Shown piece by piece: positions 54,466 through 64,000 of a DNA stretch of 64,000 nucleotides (the first letter of the stretch is position 1; the number at the start of each line of letters is the position of its first letter). The DNA lies in contig CAJXUQ010000001.1 in the NCBI GenBank assembly GCA_913061145.1, positions 62,001-126,000 of the forward strand. The letters are read 5' to 3'. The DNA is from an uncultured Haliea sp. (GTDB taxonomy: Bacteria; Pseudomonadota; Gammaproteobacteria; Pseudomonadales; Halieaceae). The notes beneath the pieces were generated by a model. The model was given only the letters and a program-made list of their open reading frames with translations. It did no database searches and was not told the origin of the DNA. The position numbers and the translations under genes were made by a program.

Positions 54466-55977
54466 ATGGACGACCCATCCCGCCGCACACTCATCAAACA
54501 GGGCCTGCTCGCCGCCACCACTGCAGCCCTCGCACCCGCCCTGCGCAGCGCGCCCACCGGGGTGTCATTTGCAGACTACCAACAGTGGGACGCGCTGGAC
54601 ATTGCCGAACGGGTGCGCAGCGGAGACGTCTCCGCGCAGGAGGTGCTTGAGGTCGCGATTGCGCGCGCCAACGCGGTCAACCCCACCCTGAATTGCATCG
54701 TGGAAACCCTGTACGATCGGGCGCGCGCTGTCGCCGCCGGGCCCTTGCCGGACGGCCCCTTCCGCGGCGTGCCGTTCCTGCTCAAGGATCTGGGCATGAT
54801 GCTTGAAGGCACGGTCACCACCGAGGGTTCGCGCTTCTTCCGCGACAATGTCGCCGACTACACCAGCACCGTGGTCACACGGTACCAGGCAGCAGGGCTC
54901 GTCATCATGGGCAAGACCCACAGCCCCGAGTTCGGCGGCACGGGCAGCAGCGAGTCCATTCTCTTCGGCGACACGCGCAACCCCTGGAACCTGGCACACT
55001 CGGCCGGTGGCTCCTCCGGCGGTGCGGCGGCGGCGGTGGCCGGCGGTATCCTGCCCATCGCCAATGCGACTGACGGCGGAGGCTCCATTCGCATCCCCGC
55101 ATCCGCCTGCGGCCTGTTCGGCATGAAGCCCAGTCGTGGCCGGGTGCCAGCCGGGCCGCGCACGCTGTCGTCGATCATGTCTGTCACACATGCCGTGTCG
55201 CGCAGCGTGCGCGACAGCGCCGCGCTGCTTGACGCCACCAGCGGCCCCGAGCCGGGACAGACGGTGATCGCACCGCCCCCCGCAGGCAGCTTCCTCCAGG
55301 CGGCGCAACAGGCGCCGGGGCGACTGCGCATTGGCCTGGTCACTACGCCACTCACTCACACACCCGTGCATGCAGAGTGCATCAGCGCCGCACGCAATGC
55401 CGCAACCCTCTGCAGTGGGCTGGGACACGCCGTTGAAGAAGTGGCGCTGCCCGTCGATCCGCGACGTTTTTTCGCGGCCTTCGGACCCATCATGGCCGCC
55501 GGTACGGTCGAGCGGATTCGCGCCAGGGAAAGGGCGCTGGGGCGGGAAGTCACCGAGAACGATCTGGAGCCACTGATCTGGGAGCGTTACCAGGCCGATC
55601 GCAACAACAGCGCCGAGCAACTCTACGCGGCGATGCAGGATATTGAGCGGATAACGCGGGATGTGGCGCTGCTGCAGGAAACATACGATGTGCTGCTATC
55701 ACCCACCCTGACCAGCCCGCCAGCAAAACTTGGGGAACTGAGCCTGAATCAGGAAAAGGCGCCCTACGAGCAGGCCGCCATCAGTGTATCGGCCTTCACC
55801 AGCCTGTTCAATGCAACCGGGCAGCCCGCCATGTCGGTGCCGCTGCACTGGAGCGCCGACGGCCTGCCGATTGGCGTTATGTTTGCGGGTCGCTACGGCG
55901 AGGAAGCACTGCTGTTCCAACTCGCCGGGCAACTGGAAAAAGCAGCGCCCTGGTTCAACCGATTGCCAAAGGTGTGA
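54466..55977 (+). CDS. exported amidase signature family hydrolase
   Basis: A 503-residue amidase. The Ser-cisSer-Lys triad is complete: Lys107 (FLLKDLG), Ser183 (SAGGSSGGAAAA) and Ser207 (TDGGGSIRIPAS). The spacing matches known family members. The N-terminus (PSRRTLIKQGLLAATTAALA) has a twin-arginine signal, so the enzyme is probably folded in the cytoplasm and sent out by Tat. Substrate unknown; the family includes hydrolases of aryl and peptide amides. Confidence 0.88.
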   Translation: MDDPSRRTLIKQGLLAATTAALAPALRSAPTGVSFADYQQWDALDIAERVRSGDVSAQEVLEVAIARANAVNPTLNCIVETLYDRARAVAAGPLPDGPFRGVPFLLKDLGMMLEGTVTTEGSRFFRDNVADYTSTVVTRYQAAGLVIMGKTHSPEFGGTGSSESILFGDTRNPWNLAHSAGGSSGGAAAAVAGGILPIANATDGGGSIRIPASACGLFGMKPSRGRVPAGPRTLSSIMSVTHAVSRSVRDSAALLDATSGPEPGQTVIAPPPAGSFLQAAQQAPGRLRIGLVTTPLTHTPVHAECISAARNAATLCSGLGHAVEEVALPVDPRRFFAAFGPIMAAGTVERIRARERALGREVTENDLEPLIWERYQADRNNSAEQLYAAMQDIERITRDVALLQETYDVLLSPTLTSPPAKLGELSLNQEKAPYEQAAISVSAFTSLFNATGQPAMSVPLHWSADGLPIGVMFAGRYGEEALLFQLAGQLEKAAPWFNRLPKV

Positions 55978-56056
55978 ACCCCATCACCTAAGCGATCTGG
56001 CGCGCGCTGCTTGCCCTGCGGTACTCTGGTTTCAGACTACCGACAAGCGCCGCGCC

Positions 56057-57835
56057 ATGAGCACACCTGTTCCTGTAGAACTTCGCATCCCTCCGCAAGA
56101 CGGTGCTCCCTTCACCCGTTTTGCGACCCGCTTGTCGGCCGCGGCCGCGTGGTGCGATGCGCTACCGATGGCGGATCCCTCGGGTGTGGCAAAGACACTG
56201 CGCGACACACTGAACGAGCTCAATCGCGCGCCAGTGGATCCGGAACTCCGCTACGAACTGCTGGAAACCCTGCGGCCAAGCCTCACCCAAACGCTGACCC
56301 TGCTCGACCGCATGCTGGTCAATCAGCCCCTGGTGATGGCACCGCGGTTACAGGCACTGGCGACTTTGTCCGACCAGATCGGTGGACTGGCCTGCACCGC
56401 CTATTCCATCTGCGTCATGCAGGCCGCGCGGGAGCCCGCCAGGATTACGCGCCGCGCGCCCGCCAGACTGGTCTGCGAGGCGTTGGAGCATGCCCTGCAC
56501 TACGCGGCGCACAAGGTGGTGCTGGCGCTCAACCTGCAGCTGCCCATCGAGTCACGCACCTGGTCGACGCTGCACCAGACCTACCTGTTGGGAGAGCGCT
56601 ACCGGCTGACGGAGCTGATGGTACCCGGAGCAGGTGGTGGGGAGAGCAGCATTCGCAATACCTGGCTGGTGCCGCTGCTTCTCGCCTGCTGCCAGACAGG
56701 CCAACTGCTGCGCAGCGACATTGCCGTGTTGCATGCCGCCCTGCGAGAGTCAGTCGGCGGCTGCCGGCTGCGACCCGGCACAGAGGCCGAGGGCCTGTTT
56801 GCCGTCGACCTCAATGGCGCCAGCCCTCCGGTCTATCGCAGCAGCATGGCGGTGTCAGGCAAGCAGGTGCGGTTACTGGACACCTCCGACCTTATCGCCT
56901 CAGCAACAAGAGCGAGGGATACGGCGCGCAAGGCGAGCCGCAGTGCCGCGTTGCTGGGTGAAACACGCGTGCCCCTGCCGTTGCTGGACCACCTGCTGGA
57001 CTGCCTGGGTAGCGAGCGGGAACGGGCAAATCGCCGAGTCATCGTGAGCGAACCCCTGCAAGCCGTGCTGGGCTTCAGTGCGGCACACTTCCATCTCGCC
57101 GGCGAGCGCACGCTTGAGGACCTGGTGCAGAAGCCCCGCAACCGGTCTGCCAGCAACAGCAAAGAGAACCCCTTTCTGGTGGAGCGCAAGGACGATGACC
57201 CCTGGGCGGCCACACACGACACCGACCGCAGCCACTCATCGCTGAATCGTGACGGCAGCATCAACGTTCTGGCCCGGGCCCGAACGGAACGGGAAGCGCC
57301 CACCGAACTGCCCGCCAACTACAGCATCGTGCGCGTCACCACGGTGGACGCCAGCCCCGGAGGCTACTGTCTGGATTGGGGCGCAAACGCACCCGGCACC
57401 GTGCGCAATGGGGAGCTACTCTGCTTACGCAGAGACCAGAAAGATCCCTGGCTGCTTGGCGTCGTCCGCTGGACCCGTCGGCGCCACGCCAGCAGCACGA
57501 CCACCGGCGTGGAAGTGCTGGCCTCTCGCGCGGAATCCTGGGCGTGCCAGACCTTGCGCGACGGCGCCAGCCAGGCCGCTTCCCTCCGGGTCATGATCCT
57601 GCCGCCGAATCGCCTGTCGCAAGGCCGGGAGACTATCATTACACCACGCACCGGCTTTGCATCCGGGCATCACCTGCTGCTGCAGCGCGGTCAGGAGCAA
57701 CGCACAGTCACCCTGGGCAAGCAGATGGCATTCAGTTCCGGGATGAGCCAGTTTGAGATACGCGAGGGGTTACTGGCTGCGGAGCCGCCTGAGGCGGCTG
57801 TCGCGGAGAAAGGCGGGATTGACTACACGCCCTGA
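56057..57835 (+). CDS. PilZ-like regulatory protein, function unknown
   Basis: A 592-residue protein. The N-terminal part (about 1-400) is helical and resembles the uncharacterised family in which ALPMADPSGVAKTLRDTLNE is a hallmark. The region about 415-520 resembles a PilZ domain (VDASPGGYCLDWG, then GELLCLRRDQK, VVRWTRRRH, TTGVEVLA), which in other proteins binds cyclic di-GMP. The classical R-x-x-x-R is not clear, so binding is unproven. The ATG at 56057 is preferred; the open frame further upstream overlaps the amidase gene. The last 13 bases overlap the convergent nucleotidyltransferase gene. Confidence 0.7.
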   Translation: MSTPVPVELRIPPQDGAPFTRFATRLSAAAAWCDALPMADPSGVAKTLRDTLNELNRAPVDPELRYELLETLRPSLTQTLTLLDRMLVNQPLVMAPRLQALATLSDQIGGLACTAYSICVMQAAREPARITRRAPARLVCEALEHALHYAAHKVVLALNLQLPIESRTWSTLHQTYLLGERYRLTELMVPGAGGGESSIRNTWLVPLLLACCQTGQLLRSDIAVLHAALRESVGGCRLRPGTEAEGLFAVDLNGASPPVYRSSMAVSGKQVRLLDTSDLIASATRARDTARKASRSAALLGETRVPLPLLDHLLDCLGSERERANRRVIVSEPLQAVLGFSAAHFHLAGERTLEDLVQKPRNRSASNSKENPFLVERKDDDPWAATHDTDRSHSSLNRDGSINVLARARTEREAPTELPANYSIVRVTTVDASPGGYCLDWGANAPGTVRNGELLCLRRDQKDPWLLGVVRWTRRRHASSTTTGVEVLASRAESWACQTLRDGASQAASLRVMILPPNRLSQGRETIITPRTGFASGHHLLLQRGQEQRTVTLGKQMAFSSGMSQFEIREGLLAAEPPEAAVAEKGGIDYTP

Positions 57836-60127: not shown

Positions 60128-60652
60128 TCAGTTGTAGGCGCGAAGGTTCGACGGATTGAGCGAGGTCCAGCACGAACCCGTCATGGGCGTAGCGTGCATG
60201 TCGTTGAAGCTGGACTCGGGAATCTGCGGCCAGTACCCAACGATCTCCGGCTTGCCACCGCTGACATCGAAGAGCACGAGCACGTGGCGCGTTGACTCCT
60301 CGTACCCGTGACTCAACAACTCATCGCGATTTGTCGCGTACGGGGTTCCACTGTTGTGATAGTAGACACCGTTGATGTCATACAAATTGTTGGCCAAGCC
60401 CTGCACACTCGGGCCCTGCTTCTTGAAATAGGGCACTTCCATGCGCACGGCCGTGTCGCCTTGCAGGCTGTTGCCCTGGCTGGCCGATTTCATGTTCGAG
60501 AAGTTCCCGCCAGAGCACTGTGCTGCGCTGGACATGGCGAGCGCGGCATTCGGCGTGAGTGAAGCAAGCAAGGGGGCCGCGGCAGATGCCTTCAACAGGC
60601 GGCGCCGGGTGGCGTCTACCGACCTCTTGTCACCTGTTTGATTATTCTCCAC
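60128..60652 (-). CDS. Tat-signal exported protein heading the HPr-rel-A type operon
   Basis: A 174-residue protein I cannot assign to a known family. The N-terminus (DATRRRLLKASAAAPLLASL) is a Tat signal peptide, probably cut after NAALA. The mature part is mostly polar with two cysteines (AAQCSGG and TGSCWTS). It contains RHVLVLFDVSGGKPEIVGYW, a strand pattern. The start is the GTG at 60652, with AGGAG seven bases upstream. An ATG at 60724 is upstream of the sigma-54 promoter and cannot be used from it. First gene of a four-gene operon. It is the best candidate substrate for the PqqD/HprK-like pair (inference). Confidence 0.72.
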   Translation of the reverse strand: MENNQTGDKRSVDATRRRLLKASAAAPLLASLTPNAALAMSSAAQCSGGNFSNMKSASQGNSLQGDTAVRMEVPYFKKQGPSVQGLANNLYDINGVYYHNSGTPYATNRDELLSHGYEESTRHVLVLFDVSGGKPEIVGYWPQIPESSFNDMHATPMTGSCWTSLNPSNLRAYN

Positions 60653-60699
60653 GACACTACTCCTGTTATCACCACGACCATCTGCGTACAGTATGCTGA

Positions 60700-60715
60700 A
60701 GCAAAAACCACGCCA
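60700..60715 (-). promoter_or_regulatory. sigma-54 promoter of the Tat protein/PqqD/HprK-like operon
   Basis: On the minus strand the bases are TGGCGTGGTTTTTGCT. The GG (-25/-24) and GC (-13/-12) are separated by ten bases, as in the consensus TGGCAC-N5-TTGCW. Transcription should begin near 60690, about 38 bases before the GTG at 60652. The 19 bases CTGGCNNGGTTTTTGCTTC recur in front of the PEP-CTERM gene. Confidence 0.85.
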
Positions 60716-60962
60716 GATTTGCAAGCCGCTGATTTTTCAACATTAATTCCCAAAGGTTACCGGCCAAGGCCTCCAGTCTGTAAAAATATTCGACAGCTGA
60801 CAGCTGGAATGCGCGCCACTAACCCAAGGACACCTTCATCCAATGGACCGCTAATTACACACAGAAAGACTAGCACAGGCTCGCGCGAGACACTGCGCAC
60901 TGGTTCACAGATTTACAACGCCCTGAGTAATCTCAGACTCCCGCCACAAACTTCGCAGGAAC

Positions 60963-60992
60963 AAAAAAGGGAGGAAGCTCGCGCTCCCTCCC
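60963..60992 (-). terminator. intrinsic terminator of PEP-CTERM gene
   Basis: On the minus strand GGGAGG (60992-60987) pairs with CCTCCC (60974-60969), with inner AGC/GCT pairs, and is followed by six T (60968-60963). It is 35 bases after the PEP-CTERM stop codon. It should prevent read-through into the Tat-protein operon, which agrees with that operon having its own promoter. Confidence 0.85.
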
Positions 60993-61026
60993 CCTTAAAT
61001 TTGCGATGTACCGCCAGATTTCGCGA

Positions 61027-61692
61027 CTAGGCTTTACGACGCCCGCCGACAGAAGCTCCAAGACCAATCAGCCCCAGACCCAGCAAAACCAGCGTGCCGG
61101 GTACGGGCACTGGCGTGGAGCCTGTGCGCGACGTGGTGTAGGCCAGATCATCGGAGGCGATCTCCTGCCCGGAGATGAGCAAAGACTGGATTGCGGTGTC
61201 CGAAGTCACGCTGATGAACTCCATGGTGCCATTGCCGGGGCCGAAACCAGCCGGGCGGGAGATGACGCCGAGAGACTCATTGCCTGCACCGAAGAACTCG
61301 ATGGACTCCGCACCGGGCCCTGCGGCGCTGAACCAGCCGCTAAAGCCGAAGATGCCGCCCAGACCGCTGAAATCCAGCCCGTACGTGCCATCGCCGAAGC
61401 CGGTTCCGAAGCGCGACCCGGAGACCGGGACAATCGCCGAACTACCGCGAAAATCGACCCAATTACCCGCGTCCACCGAGGCGTGGTTTACCGTTCCCGC
61501 GACAACACTCACCGACCCACCAAACAGAGAAGTCAGGAAGGTGCGCCCACCGGGAGTGCCCTCGTAATCCTCCACCGCATCAGCAACGAAGGTGCCCTCG
61601 ATGATCGGGGCTGCCTGCAGGCCGAGGGCACCGAAGGTGAGTGAGACCGCAAGTGCGGCCTTGCAAAATACCGTTTTTCCTATGTTCATCAT
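61027..61692 (-). CDS. PEP-CTERM sorting domain protein
   Basis: A 221-residue secreted protein. A signal peptide (CKAALAVSLTFGALGLQA) precedes a Gly/Ser/Phe-rich beta-type mature domain, and the C-terminal sorting signal is PVPVPGTLVLLGLGLIGLGA followed by SVGGRRKA. In exosortase systems such proteins are cut and passed to the outer surface, often with an exopolysaccharide or floc matrix. The classical PEP is here VPVPGT, so Glu is replaced by Val. Start at ATG 61692 or 61689, with GAGAG upstream. A sigma-54 promoter drives it. Confidence 0.88.
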   Translation of the reverse strand: MMNIGKTVFCKAALAVSLTFGALGLQAAPIIEGTFVADAVEDYEGTPGGRTFLTSLFGGSVSVVAGTVNHASVDAGNWVDFRGSSAIVPVSGSRFGTGFGDGTYGLDFSGLGGIFGFSGWFSAAGPGAESIEFFGAGNESLGVISRPAGFGPGNGTMEFISVTSDTAIQSLLISGQEIASDDLAYTTSRTGSTPVPVPGTLVLLGLGLIGLGASVGGRRKA

Positions 61693-61740
61693 CGTGTTTC
61701 TCTCTTCCGAAGCGGGCTGATTTTCTGACGGTTTAAACGA

Positions 61741-61756
61741 AGCAAAAACCTTGCCA
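61741..61756 (-). promoter_or_regulatory. sigma-54 promoter of PEP-CTERM gene
   Basis: On the minus strand the sequence is TGGCAAGGTTTTTGCT, with GG and GC ten bases apart (-24/-12). The expected start near 61730 gives a leader of about 38 bases. Upstream, CAGTATCAA (plus-strand reading) occurs at 61755-61763 and again at 61801-61809, about 70 bases before the start, and may be an activator site. Confidence 0.85.
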
Positions 61757-61877
61757 GTATCAAAAAATTACTATGAAACAAATGGTTACAAACCCCTTCA
61801 CAGTATCAACCCGGTCCCGTGTAAAAAAACTGGACAGTACACTCCGGCACGCGCACTGCATGCAGGAGAGCGGCCGA

Positions 61878-64000
61878 TCAATGGCCCCGCAGCTTCTGCG
61901 CCAACGCCCTCGCCGCCTCCGCTTCCGGGAACGGGGGCCCCTTCAGCAGCGTGTCCAGCAGTTCCAGCGCCTCGGCGGGCCGTTCAGCAGCCGCCAGTAT
62001 CTGGGCGCGGTGAAAACGGAACTGCGGCGAATCGGGGGCCACTTCCAGTGTCTTCTGGTTCACGGCCAGTGCTTCGCTTAAGTCACCATTCTCCATCAGG
62101 ATCATGGCGTAGGTGTCCTGGATGGCGGCATTGTCGGGCACACTCTGCAGCGCCTTCTGCACCAGTTCCAGCGCACGGGCAGTGTTTGATGAACGATAGG
62201 CCCAGGCCAGGTTGTTCATGGCCACCACATCCTCTGGCGCCAGTCGGTGCAGGGTTTCAAACACGCCCGCCGCGTCCTCATCCCGGCCCTGCGACAGGTA
62301 GAGTGGTCCGAGCGTGCTGAGCACGACCACGTCCTCCGGTGCGCTTTCCAGCCACCCTTCCAGCATCCGGTAGGCTTCATCTCGCTTGCCCTGCTGCAAC
62401 AGCGTCGAGGACAGGAAAACCAGCGAGTTGCTGGAGGGCGCTGCGCCGTGCGCCTTGCGCAGCAGCGCCTCGGCTTCGTCCAGGTCCCCCTGGGTCAGGG
62501 CCAGTCGACCCCGCGCGAGGTTCAGCTGGGGCTCGGGCACCACGCCGGGCGGCAGCTGCGCGAGTTCCTCGCTGGTTTCCGCCAGCTTGTTCTGCTGCAA
62601 CAGCACCTCTACGAGCATCTTGCGTGAATCCACATCCTGCGGCTGTAGCTCCACTGCCTGACGCAGGCGGCCTTCCGCCGCCGGGAGGTCGCCATTGGCC
62701 CGCTCAGCCTGCGCGGCCAGACGCAGCGCGCGTACGTTGTCGGGCATCAATTCAAGCAGGCGACGGGTGGCATTCACTGCCGCACCCGGCTGGTCAAGCG
62801 CGAGAAATGCCCCGGCCAACAGCTGGTGCACGCGGGGATCACCGTTGTGTTCATCGCGCACCGCGGTCAGCAGGTCCACGGCCTCACCGGGCCGCTGCTG
62901 TGTGAACTGGAAGCGTGCCAGCATCAGGCGGGGCTCCAACGCCTTCGGATGCGCGGCAATGGCGCGCTCCAGCACAGCGACCATTTCGGTGGTTTCACCG
63001 CGCTGCTCGTGCACGGCCGCCAGATTCATCATGCCCTGGAGGTCATCGGGCTGCGCCGCCAGGCTTTCATTGAGAATAGCGAGTGCCGCGGCGGAATCAT
63101 CATTGAGCATCGCCAGCGATGCCAGTCCGGTGCTGGCCTGGGTATTGCCCGGGTCCAGTGCCAATGCCGCGCGGTAGTTCTCCGCAGCGCCTGACCGGTC
63201 GCCCGCATCCAGTGCCAGCTGTGCCGCCAAAACGCTGGGCAGCGGATCCTCGGGCGCGCTGTCACGGAACGCCTGCAACTCGGCATTTGCAGCCTCGGCA
63301 TCACCGCCGGCGGAGAGGGCACGCACCAGGCGATAGCGGATTTCTCCGTCCGCCGGATCGAGGTCACGCGCAGCGCGCAGCGCCGCGGTACCGGCGTCGA
63401 GGTCACCGGATCGCACCAGTGAGGTGCCCAGTTCCATCTGCACCTGCGCGGACTCCGGCGTGACCGACGCCATGTCCTGGTAGACTGCGGCGCTCGCGCC
63501 ATGCATACCCTGCGCGGTCAGCGCCAGCGCGAGTATGTTCATCGTAGGGACGTTCATGGGCAGTTCCTCCAGCAACTTGCGGGTGATGGTTTCAGCACGT
63601 CCGGGCTCACCCATACGCAGGTACACCGCCGCGAGCATCTGCCGCGCGTTGATATTGCGCGGTTGCGCCGCAAGGAAGCGGCTCAGCTGGTCCTCGGCGG
63701 TGGCCAGGTTGCCCTCGCGGAAGTTGGCATTCGCCGCCAGGTACAGGCTCGGCAGGTGGCTCGGGGCGACATTCAGCACTTTGGCCAGCTCACCGAGCCC
63801 GGCACTTGCGTTGCCCTGCTCGATCTGGATGCGGGCCTGGGCGTAATTCACGCCGGGATGATCGGGGATAATCTTCTCGAGTTGTTCCAGCTCTTTCGCG
63901 GCTTCCGTATGCTTGCCCTGCTCCACCTGCACCGCCACCATGCTCAGGCGGTCGTTGAGGCGGAAGCGATTGAGTGAGCTGGCCGTGGCGAAGGCCTGCT
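61878..64000 (-). CDS. prsT: PrsT-like TPR protein of the exosortase A/PEP-CTERM system (5' end outside window)
   Basis: The reading frame stays open to the right edge (codons from about 63998), so the N-terminus lies beyond the window. The visible part is about 707 residues, made of at least 17 TPR-like units of 34 residues, such as NSLVFLSSTLLQQGKRDEAY. TPR proteins called PrsT (TIGR02917) are regular members of XrtA/PEP-CTERM loci, probably as periplasmic or lipoprotein scaffolds in export of polysaccharide or sorted proteins. It lies directly upstream of the PEP-CTERM gene. A general TPR protein cannot be excluded from this fragment alone. Confidence 0.82.
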   Translation of the reverse strand, partial: QAFATASSLNRFRLNDRLSMVAVQVEQGKHTEAAKELEQLEKIIPDHPGVNYAQARIQIEQGNASAGLGELAKVLNVAPSHLPSLYLAANANFREGNLATAEDQLSRFLAAQPRNINARQMLAAVYLRMGEPGRAETITRKLLEELPMNVPTMNILALALTAQGMHGASAAVYQDMASVTPESAQVQMELGTSLVRSGDLDAGTAALRAARDLDPADGEIRYRLVRALSAGGDAEAANAELQAFRDSAPEDPLPSVLAAQLALDAGDRSGAAENYRAALALDPGNTQASTGLASLAMLNDDSAAALAILNESLAAQPDDLQGMMNLAAVHEQRGETTEMVAVLERAIAAHPKALEPRLMLARFQFTQQRPGEAVDLLTAVRDEHNGDPRVHQLLAGAFLALDQPGAAVNATRRLLELMPDNVRALRLAAQAERANGDLPAAEGRLRQAVELQPQDVDSRKMLVEVLLQQNKLAETSEELAQLPPGVVPEPQLNLARGRLALTQGDLDEAEALLRKAHGAAPSSNSLVFLSSTLLQQGKRDEAYRMLEGWLESAPEDVVVLSTLGPLYLSQGRDEDAAGVFETLHRLAPEDVVAMNNLAWAYRSSNTARALELVQKALQSVPDNAAIQDTYAMILMENGDLSEALAVNQKTLEVAPDSPQFRFHRAQILAAAERPAEALELLDTLLKGPPFPEAEAARALAQKLRGH

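Follow-up and report, generated by a model that had tools for sequence, protein, structure and literature searches.

An HPr-rel-A operon shares a predicted PrsK/PrsR-RpoN control region with PEP-CTERM genes

Gene Content of the Locus and Its Genome

The window, i.e., the whole 64,000-nucleotide stretch of DNA analyzed here, corresponds to bases 62001-126000 of a 274,751-base contig (C1) in a draft genome of 3.52 Mb and 53 contigs. Its minus strand carries prsT followed, at successively lower coordinates, by a PEP-CTERM gene and a four-gene HPr-rel-A operon (Table 1). The operon is assigned to that system on the basis of HprK_rel_A and PqqD_rel_X, which both scored over their cut-offs. The fields of these two models (TIGR04352 and TIGR04353) mention no promoter, regulon, or Tat cargo, and our literature search found no paper bearing the HPr-rel-A names. 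A 683-aa frame converging on the NTP_transf_5 gene (window 55784-57835, plus strand) matched no Pfam or NCBIfam family at the thresholds used. The full gene set sought for the regulon was present in the genome, namely RpoN (TIGR02395), PrsR and PrsK (TIGR02915 and TIGR02916), and PrsT (TIGR02917). The PrsK and PrsR genes adjoin each other on the same contig, approximately 58-62 kb past the window end and close to XrtA-type exopolysaccharide genes.

Table 1. Features of the PEP-CTERM/HPr-rel-A locus, in window coordinates
Feature	Position	Strand	Basis
prsT, XrtA/PEP-CTERM system TPR protein, continuing past the window end	61878..64000	-	TIGR02917, 431.3 bits (cut-off 312.2)
17-bp box (Haft motif 1, predicted PrsR site), PEP-CTERM gene, TGTCCAGTTTTTTTACA	61820..61836	-	motif and matrix scans
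Sigma-54-type -24/-12 promoter, PEP-CTERM gene, TGGCAAGGTTTTTGCT	61741..61756	-	exact consensus
PEP-CTERM protein, 221 aa	61027..61692	-	PF07589 (C-terminal PEP-CTERM domain), 22.8 bits (cut-off 20.7)
17-bp box (Haft motif 1, predicted PrsR site), HPr-rel-A operon, TGTCGAATATTTTTACA	60779..60795	-	six-genome alignment, motif and matrix scans
Sigma-54-type -24/-12 promoter, HPr-rel-A operon, TGGCGTGGTTTTTGCT	60700..60715	-	exact consensus, kept in orthologues
Putative Tat-signal cargo protein encoded by the first operon gene (174 aa, GTG start)	60128..60652	-	sequence pattern
PqqD_rel_X, HPr-rel-A system PqqD-type peptide chaperone, 93 aa	59807..60088	-	TIGR04353, 40 bits (cut-off 35)
HprK-related kinase A, 305 aa	58893..59810	-	TIGR04352, 370.7 bits (cut-off 200)
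NTP_transf_5 nucleotidyltransferase, 357 aa	57823..58896	-	PF14907, 145 bits (cut-off 31.2)

Two Sigma-54-Type Promoters at the Locus

An earlier note on this DNA had described twin sigma-54 promoters before the two transcription units, and that description held. The 19-mers at 60698-60716 (GAAGCAAAAACCACGCCAG) and 61739-61757 (GAAGCAAAAACCTTGCCAG) do differ at only 2 of 19 bases, the GG and GC are ten bases apart in both when read on the minus strand, and both are exact -24/-12 matches by sequence. The distance of 38 bases given in the note fits the leader, which would be approximately 37-38 nt if transcription started 11-12 nt past the GC; the interval from the -12 GC to the start codon is 48 and 49 nt at the two promoters (first base of the GTG of the Tat gene, 60652; first base of the ATG of the PEP-CTERM gene, 61692). 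The GTG is preceded by AGGAG, and the ATG by a weaker purine stretch.

Exact matches to TGGC-N2-G-N4-TTGCW (TGGCNNGNNNNTTGCW) were confined to these two sites in the 64-kb window, where 23 matches to TGGCNNGNNNNTTGCW with up to one mismatch were recorded vs. 16.4 expected. Across the whole genome, TGGCNNGNNNNTTGCT matched 23 times and the reversed pattern 4 times; hence, a bare -24/-12 match is no proof, and bare matching was dropped. One other exact -24/-12 match, on the minus strand of contig C20 (C20:43035-43050, L019), lies approximately 110 bases upstream of the rpoN match (C20:43162) and is directed away from it. Orthologues of the Tat gene were recognizable in 6 of 58 related genomes, comprising five of the eight genomes of the genus and one from another genus, and the -24/-12 site was found upstream of all six. 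This retention, together with the second element described next, exceeds what chance would explain.

A 17-bp Box Completes a Composite Control Region

When the sequences preceding the Tat gene in these six genomes were aligned, two conserved blocks emerged, the -24/-12 promoter and, approximately 80 nt further upstream, a 17-bp box, TGTC-N5-TTTTTACA, a TGT-N11-ACA dyad. This second element, unseen in the earlier note, is common to both promoters of the window and starts exactly 80 nt from the promoter TGG in each. A CTGTGAACCAGTGCGC...TGTGCTAG stretch (window 60870-60910, minus strand), approximately 100 nt upstream of the box, is also well conserved in five loci of the same genus, though not in G028.

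The arrangement corresponds to the control region described by Haft et al. 2006, in which a 17-nt motif 1 ending in TTTACA is separated by a spacer averaging 62.8 nt (32-92) from a sigma-54 motif 2 (PMC1569441); at both window promoters the spacer is 63 nt. That study located the region in front of 99 of the 167 PEP-CTERM genes from proteobacteria and, in a few instances, in front of genes of other kinds; its species profile matches those of PrsK, PrsR, and PrsT, so that the assignment to PrsR is a prediction from species profiles (PMC1569441). The PEP-CTERM half of the regulon is thus already known from the literature.

When the whole window was scanned with a box-plus-promoter matrix, the two sites scored 41.4 and 36.2, and no other locus reached 22. 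Genome-wide, exact matches to the box numbered four, before the HPr-rel-A operon and three PEP-CTERM genes. Allowing up to one mismatch gave 11 matches against 7 for the reversed pattern, so that the box by itself is unspecific. The combination of box and promoter is specific. Seven of the 11 were followed 80-91 nt on by a -24/-12 site (up to two mismatches) and the other four were not; of these seven composite sites, six precede genes with PEP-CTERM-type tails and the remaining one precedes the HPr-rel-A operon. Pfam matches to PEP-CTERM over cut-off numbered seven in the genome and lie behind six composite sites, one of which is common to two matches on contig C15, while a seventh composite site lies before another gene, whose tail is PEP-CTERM-like (L024:6284-6961). 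Two PEP-CTERM matches below cut-off (L033 and L034) had composite-matrix scores of 15.0 and 6.8, i.e., no site. The regulon predicted for this genome comprises seven PEP-CTERM-type promoters and the HPr-rel-A operon.

Occurrence of the Composite Site in Related and Distant Loci

Occurrence of the site was determined in two sets of loci that come from related genomes, so that the counts below are not independent. The first set consisted of the 58 related genomes, 18 of which encode HprK_rel_A. At all 18 HPr-rel-A loci the box and promoter together scored higher than 21.05, the 99th percentile for 756 controls, one of which, at 37.5, was higher than 12 of the 18 loci; by mismatch counting, the box was found at 18 loci and the box plus promoter at 16. 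Exact composite sites in the relatives numbered 42, in 17 of the 58 genomes, against none for the reversed control. Thirty of the 42 were inspected as loci, with 19 located before genes with PEP-CTERM-type tails, five before the HPr-rel-A Tat gene, and six of unclear assignment.

The second set comprised at least 79 distant loci, retrieved by scanning a genome collection with the kinase alignment and mostly belonging to Gamma- and Betaproteobacteria by title, with Duganella and Massilia among the genera represented; at least two (L110 and L169) are apparently repeats from the first set. The matrix used here was trained on 18 sites, all preceding genes with PEP-CTERM-type tails, and HPr-rel-A sites were kept out of the training. 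These 18 came from an exact-consensus search, and the tails were judged by eye, one (L065) lacking a canonical PEP tail. Among the matches listed, 76 loci had at least 1,000 nt upstream and were scored. Forty-four of these exceeded the 99th percentile and 38 exceeded every one of 760 controls, while 32 had no site over the threshold with this PEP-CTERM-trained matrix. An earlier, strict mismatch count, made before the matrix was adopted, had given up to three mismatches in 32 of the same 76 loci, compared with none in three kinds of control (minus-strand, reversed, and shuffled, with 76 loci apiece) and four of 75 in the downstream control. Rescanning these loci showed that PEP-CTERM-tailed and cargo genes carry their own sites outside the tested stretch. 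In 789 kb from the 79 listed loci, 51 sites scored above 22.9; 37 precede the operon and three precede a Tat cargo gene that is either an additional copy or located beyond the kinase gene on its downstream side (L150, L160, and L177), giving 40 of 51 followed by the operon or another Tat cargo gene. A further nine precede eight PEP-CTERM-tailed genes, and two are located elsewhere (L127 and L164). One genome has an additional cargo gene (L221) before which no site was found, which argues against every cargo gene carrying one.

Distances between box and promoter fell into groups near 67-70, 78-82, 88-95, 99-104, and 111-115 nt, plus a single case of 126 nt, and the grouping was alike for PEP-CTERM and HPr-rel-A genes. 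Across 44 sites of the listed distant loci, helical phasing gave an R of 0.58 at a period of 10.5 and a best value of 0.71 at 11.3, whereas the maximum among 2000 uniform random sets was 0.52. Best periods were 10.9-11.3 and not precisely 10.5, and we treat the phasing as supportive evidence only, because the best-scoring distances of related loci were used. Such stepped distances would suit an activator confined to one face of the DNA.

Co-occurrence of HprK_rel_A with PrsR

PrsR scored over cut-off in 28 of the 58 relatives, and none of the 17 genomes carrying an exact composite site or of the 18 encoding HprK_rel_A fell outside these 28. Across the class, 106 of 369 genomes encode PrsR and 41 encode HprK_rel_A; 40 of these 41 have both, and the sole exception (G065) is 75% complete. 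For the listed distant loci, 49 genomes were searched, of which 44 contained PrsR. By site status, again among the matches listed, PrsR was found for 15 of 15 loci with a site (the search covering 15 of the 44 site-positive loci), 27 of 31 scored loci without one, and two of three unscored loci. The missing sites are thus mostly not due to the absence of PrsR; candidate causes are divergence of the box, relocation of the cargo gene, and real loss. Relatives of HprK_rel_A also occurred in genomes titled Phycisphaeraceae (L179) and Alphaproteobacteria (L184); a PrsR match was present in the latter and none in the former.

The Cargo Protein, the Kinase, and Their Partners

A Tat-type first gene was identified by script in 66 of 79 loci among the matches listed and by eye in five more (L132, L158, L167, L180, and L187). 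Two loci have the cargo gene elsewhere (L150 and L160), and six of the 79 listed have no clear cargo gene, three of these with short upstream DNA. In 33 cargo proteins chosen from the 66, R25, C51, S55, S59, and C71 are invariant and R24 nearly so, with the invariant Cys and Ser located directly behind the signal peptide. No NCBIfam or Pfam family accounted for the 33 proteins scanned, for which three weak matches, each to one member, were recorded; TIGR01409 matched one of the 33. The cargo of the window is a divergent member of this group. It matched no NCBIfam family, and its putative Tat signal is a pattern (RR, hydrophobic core, and AxA-type site) recognized by eye and script, the Pfam TAT_signal match (E 0.088) being under cut-off. 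A structural model of the L129 cargo, built with 33 sequences, had a mean pLDDT of 80.4 and a pTM of 0.73, and a fold search of the PDB with it returned no usable match (best E 2.3). The cargo model had a single match in 31 of 36 chosen genomes of distant loci. In two genomes, its TPGYWK...ALLNA core was found as a module of large SdrD_B-repeat proteins (L219:2-6607 and L220:1915-6309), which hints at a role outside the cell.

Among the matches listed, TIGR04353 was matched by 54 of 65 scanned PqqD-type proteins, and a lasso PqqD model by five of the 65. Downstream frames numbered 75 at these loci, of which two oversized ones were excluded; 67 of the 73 proteins scanned matched PF14907, a family that we take to include PsmN of the lasso-peptide systems. 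A sequence search of the PDB with the NTP_transf_5 protein returned no relative at E <= 1. In the kinase, H119, K140, D157, and E158 are invariant in 18 of 18 relatives. Lasso-peptide kinases carry a His-Lys-Asp-Asp motif (PMC9266682), so that the fourth catalytic position, by our reading of position equivalence, is Glu here vs. Asp there. In such systems (the PadeK/ThcoK kinases and PsmK/PsmN), the kinase phosphorylates a Ser of the precursor, and hexoses are added where a companion nucleotidyltransferase is present (PMC9266682). The possible likeness lies in a kinase and an annotated nucleotidyltransferase acting on Ser of a gene-encoded precursor. Unlike lasso precursors, the cargo is a Tat-type protein of approximately 90-300 aa and not a short peptide, and the NCBIfam and Pfam scan of the operon's four genes found no cyclase or leader peptidase; hence, we do not class the operon as a lasso system.

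Alternative Explanations

The two genes are neighbors and their 16-mers nearly identical, so the likeness of the promoters might be a local accident, e.g., a recent copy of the PEP-CTERM promoter placed before the Tat gene. This is contradicted by conservation in relatives and distant loci, since the pair lies upstream in 18 of 18 relatives' loci and in 44 of the 76 scored distant loci among the matches listed, many with other sequences, spacings, and neighbors; the DNA between box and promoter is, moreover, unlike between the two window copies. We give a local copy next to no weight. Alternatively, the sigma-54 promoters may be real and the box read by another NtrC-type protein, for which the genome offers four candidates besides PrsR, each matching the PrsR model with E <= 1e-100 but under cut-off (five matches in all). 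All 17 relatives with an exact composite site, however, fall within the 28 PrsR-positive genomes of 58, and the same profile match was reported by Haft et al. (PMC1569441), leaving a different activator very unlikely.

A further alternative accepts the operon as a regulon member but holds that HprK_rel_A regulates HPr or another cell protein, as a true HPr kinase does, with the Tat cargo left unmodified. HPr kinase/phosphorylases are indeed the only solved relatives of the kinase profile at E <= 0.01 (E 0.0015, ~60 residues). Against this stands the company that the kinase keeps among the matches listed, i.e., a PqqD-type protein (54/65), a PF14907 protein (67/73), and a cargo-type first gene (66/79); Glu for Asp at the fourth catalytic position favors neither side. 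We regard such a role as unlikely, though less so than a different activator.

Discussion

Taken together, the box and promoter found upstream of both genes identify the two sites as probable control regions of one PrsK/PrsR-RpoN regulon that includes the HPr-rel-A operon, a reading to which we assign a probability of roughly 0.9 on the strength of sequence comparison. The earlier note's suggestion that the operon belongs with the PEP-CTERM genes is supported by the same box and spacing, their retention in many Gamma- and Betaproteobacteria, and the occurrence of HprK_rel_A almost only with PrsR. We infer that PrsR binds the box and that both promoters depend on RpoN. The note's appeal to control by RpoN and PrsK/PrsR elsewhere stands in part: RpoN dependence was demonstrated for one gene, pepA of Aquincola tertiaricarbonis, with an rpoN mutant and a mapped start (PMC9850573), whereas PrsK/PrsR control is a prediction (PMC1569441). 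An Aquincola prsK mutant formed no flocs, although complementation failed (PMC9850573). Like pepA, the PEP-CTERM gene studied here lies beside prsT and has a -24/-12 promoter and a predicted enhancer; unlike pepA, its regulation is read from sequence and not from experiment, and the accessible text of PMC9850573 names no HPr-rel-A operon. Likewise, the region of Haft et al. was tied, in the accessible text, to PEP-CTERM genes and a few unnamed others (PMC1569441), whereas the loci examined here point to a lasting member that is not a PEP-CTERM gene and to helical steps in distance. Apparent membership of the HPr-rel-A operon in the PEP-CTERM regulon, kept across species, is well supported and new, this branch of the PrsR regulon not having been met in the literature searched.

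Under the mechanism we propose, the membrane kinase PrsK would phosphorylate PrsR, which would bind the 17-bp box a set number of helical turns upstream of the promoter and activate RpoN polymerase at the -24/-12 site. The tailoring kit and its exported cargo would thereby be switched on together with the PEP-CTERM proteins. In the cytoplasm, the kit (PqqD-type chaperone, HprK-like kinase, and nucleotidyltransferase) would bind the cargo leader and phosphorylate, perhaps further decorate, Ser residues just behind the signal peptide, and the product would exit by Tat to join the PEP-CTERM/exopolysaccharide surface layer. Tailoring of the cargo by the HPr-rel-A kit before export is suggested by the analogy with lasso-peptide kinases and nucleotidyltransferases, and we propose it tentatively, at somewhat under even odds. 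More doubtful is the complete matrix protein-tailoring and export route, in which the PqqD-type chaperone would present the cargo to the kinase acting on the invariant Ser residues, NTP_transf_5 would modify the phosphate with a nucleotide or sugar, Tat would export the folded product, and PrsK/PrsR would fire the route with the exosortase/PEP-CTERM proteins. If true, one signal would deploy two differently exported matrix proteins, one of them perhaps anchored to exopolysaccharide by a phosphate-linked sugar.

As the earlier note had anticipated, it is reasonable to tie the operon's role to the surface matrix; since many relatives keep the shared switch, the operon probably helps build the outer layer. 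A lasting place in the PrsR regulon gives the HPr-rel-A system a likely signal, time of expression, and destination, and names a cargo family that is absent from Pfam and NCBIfam. These data suggest that PrsR control extends beyond the PEP-CTERM genes, a point of relevance to the formation of flocs and biofilms.
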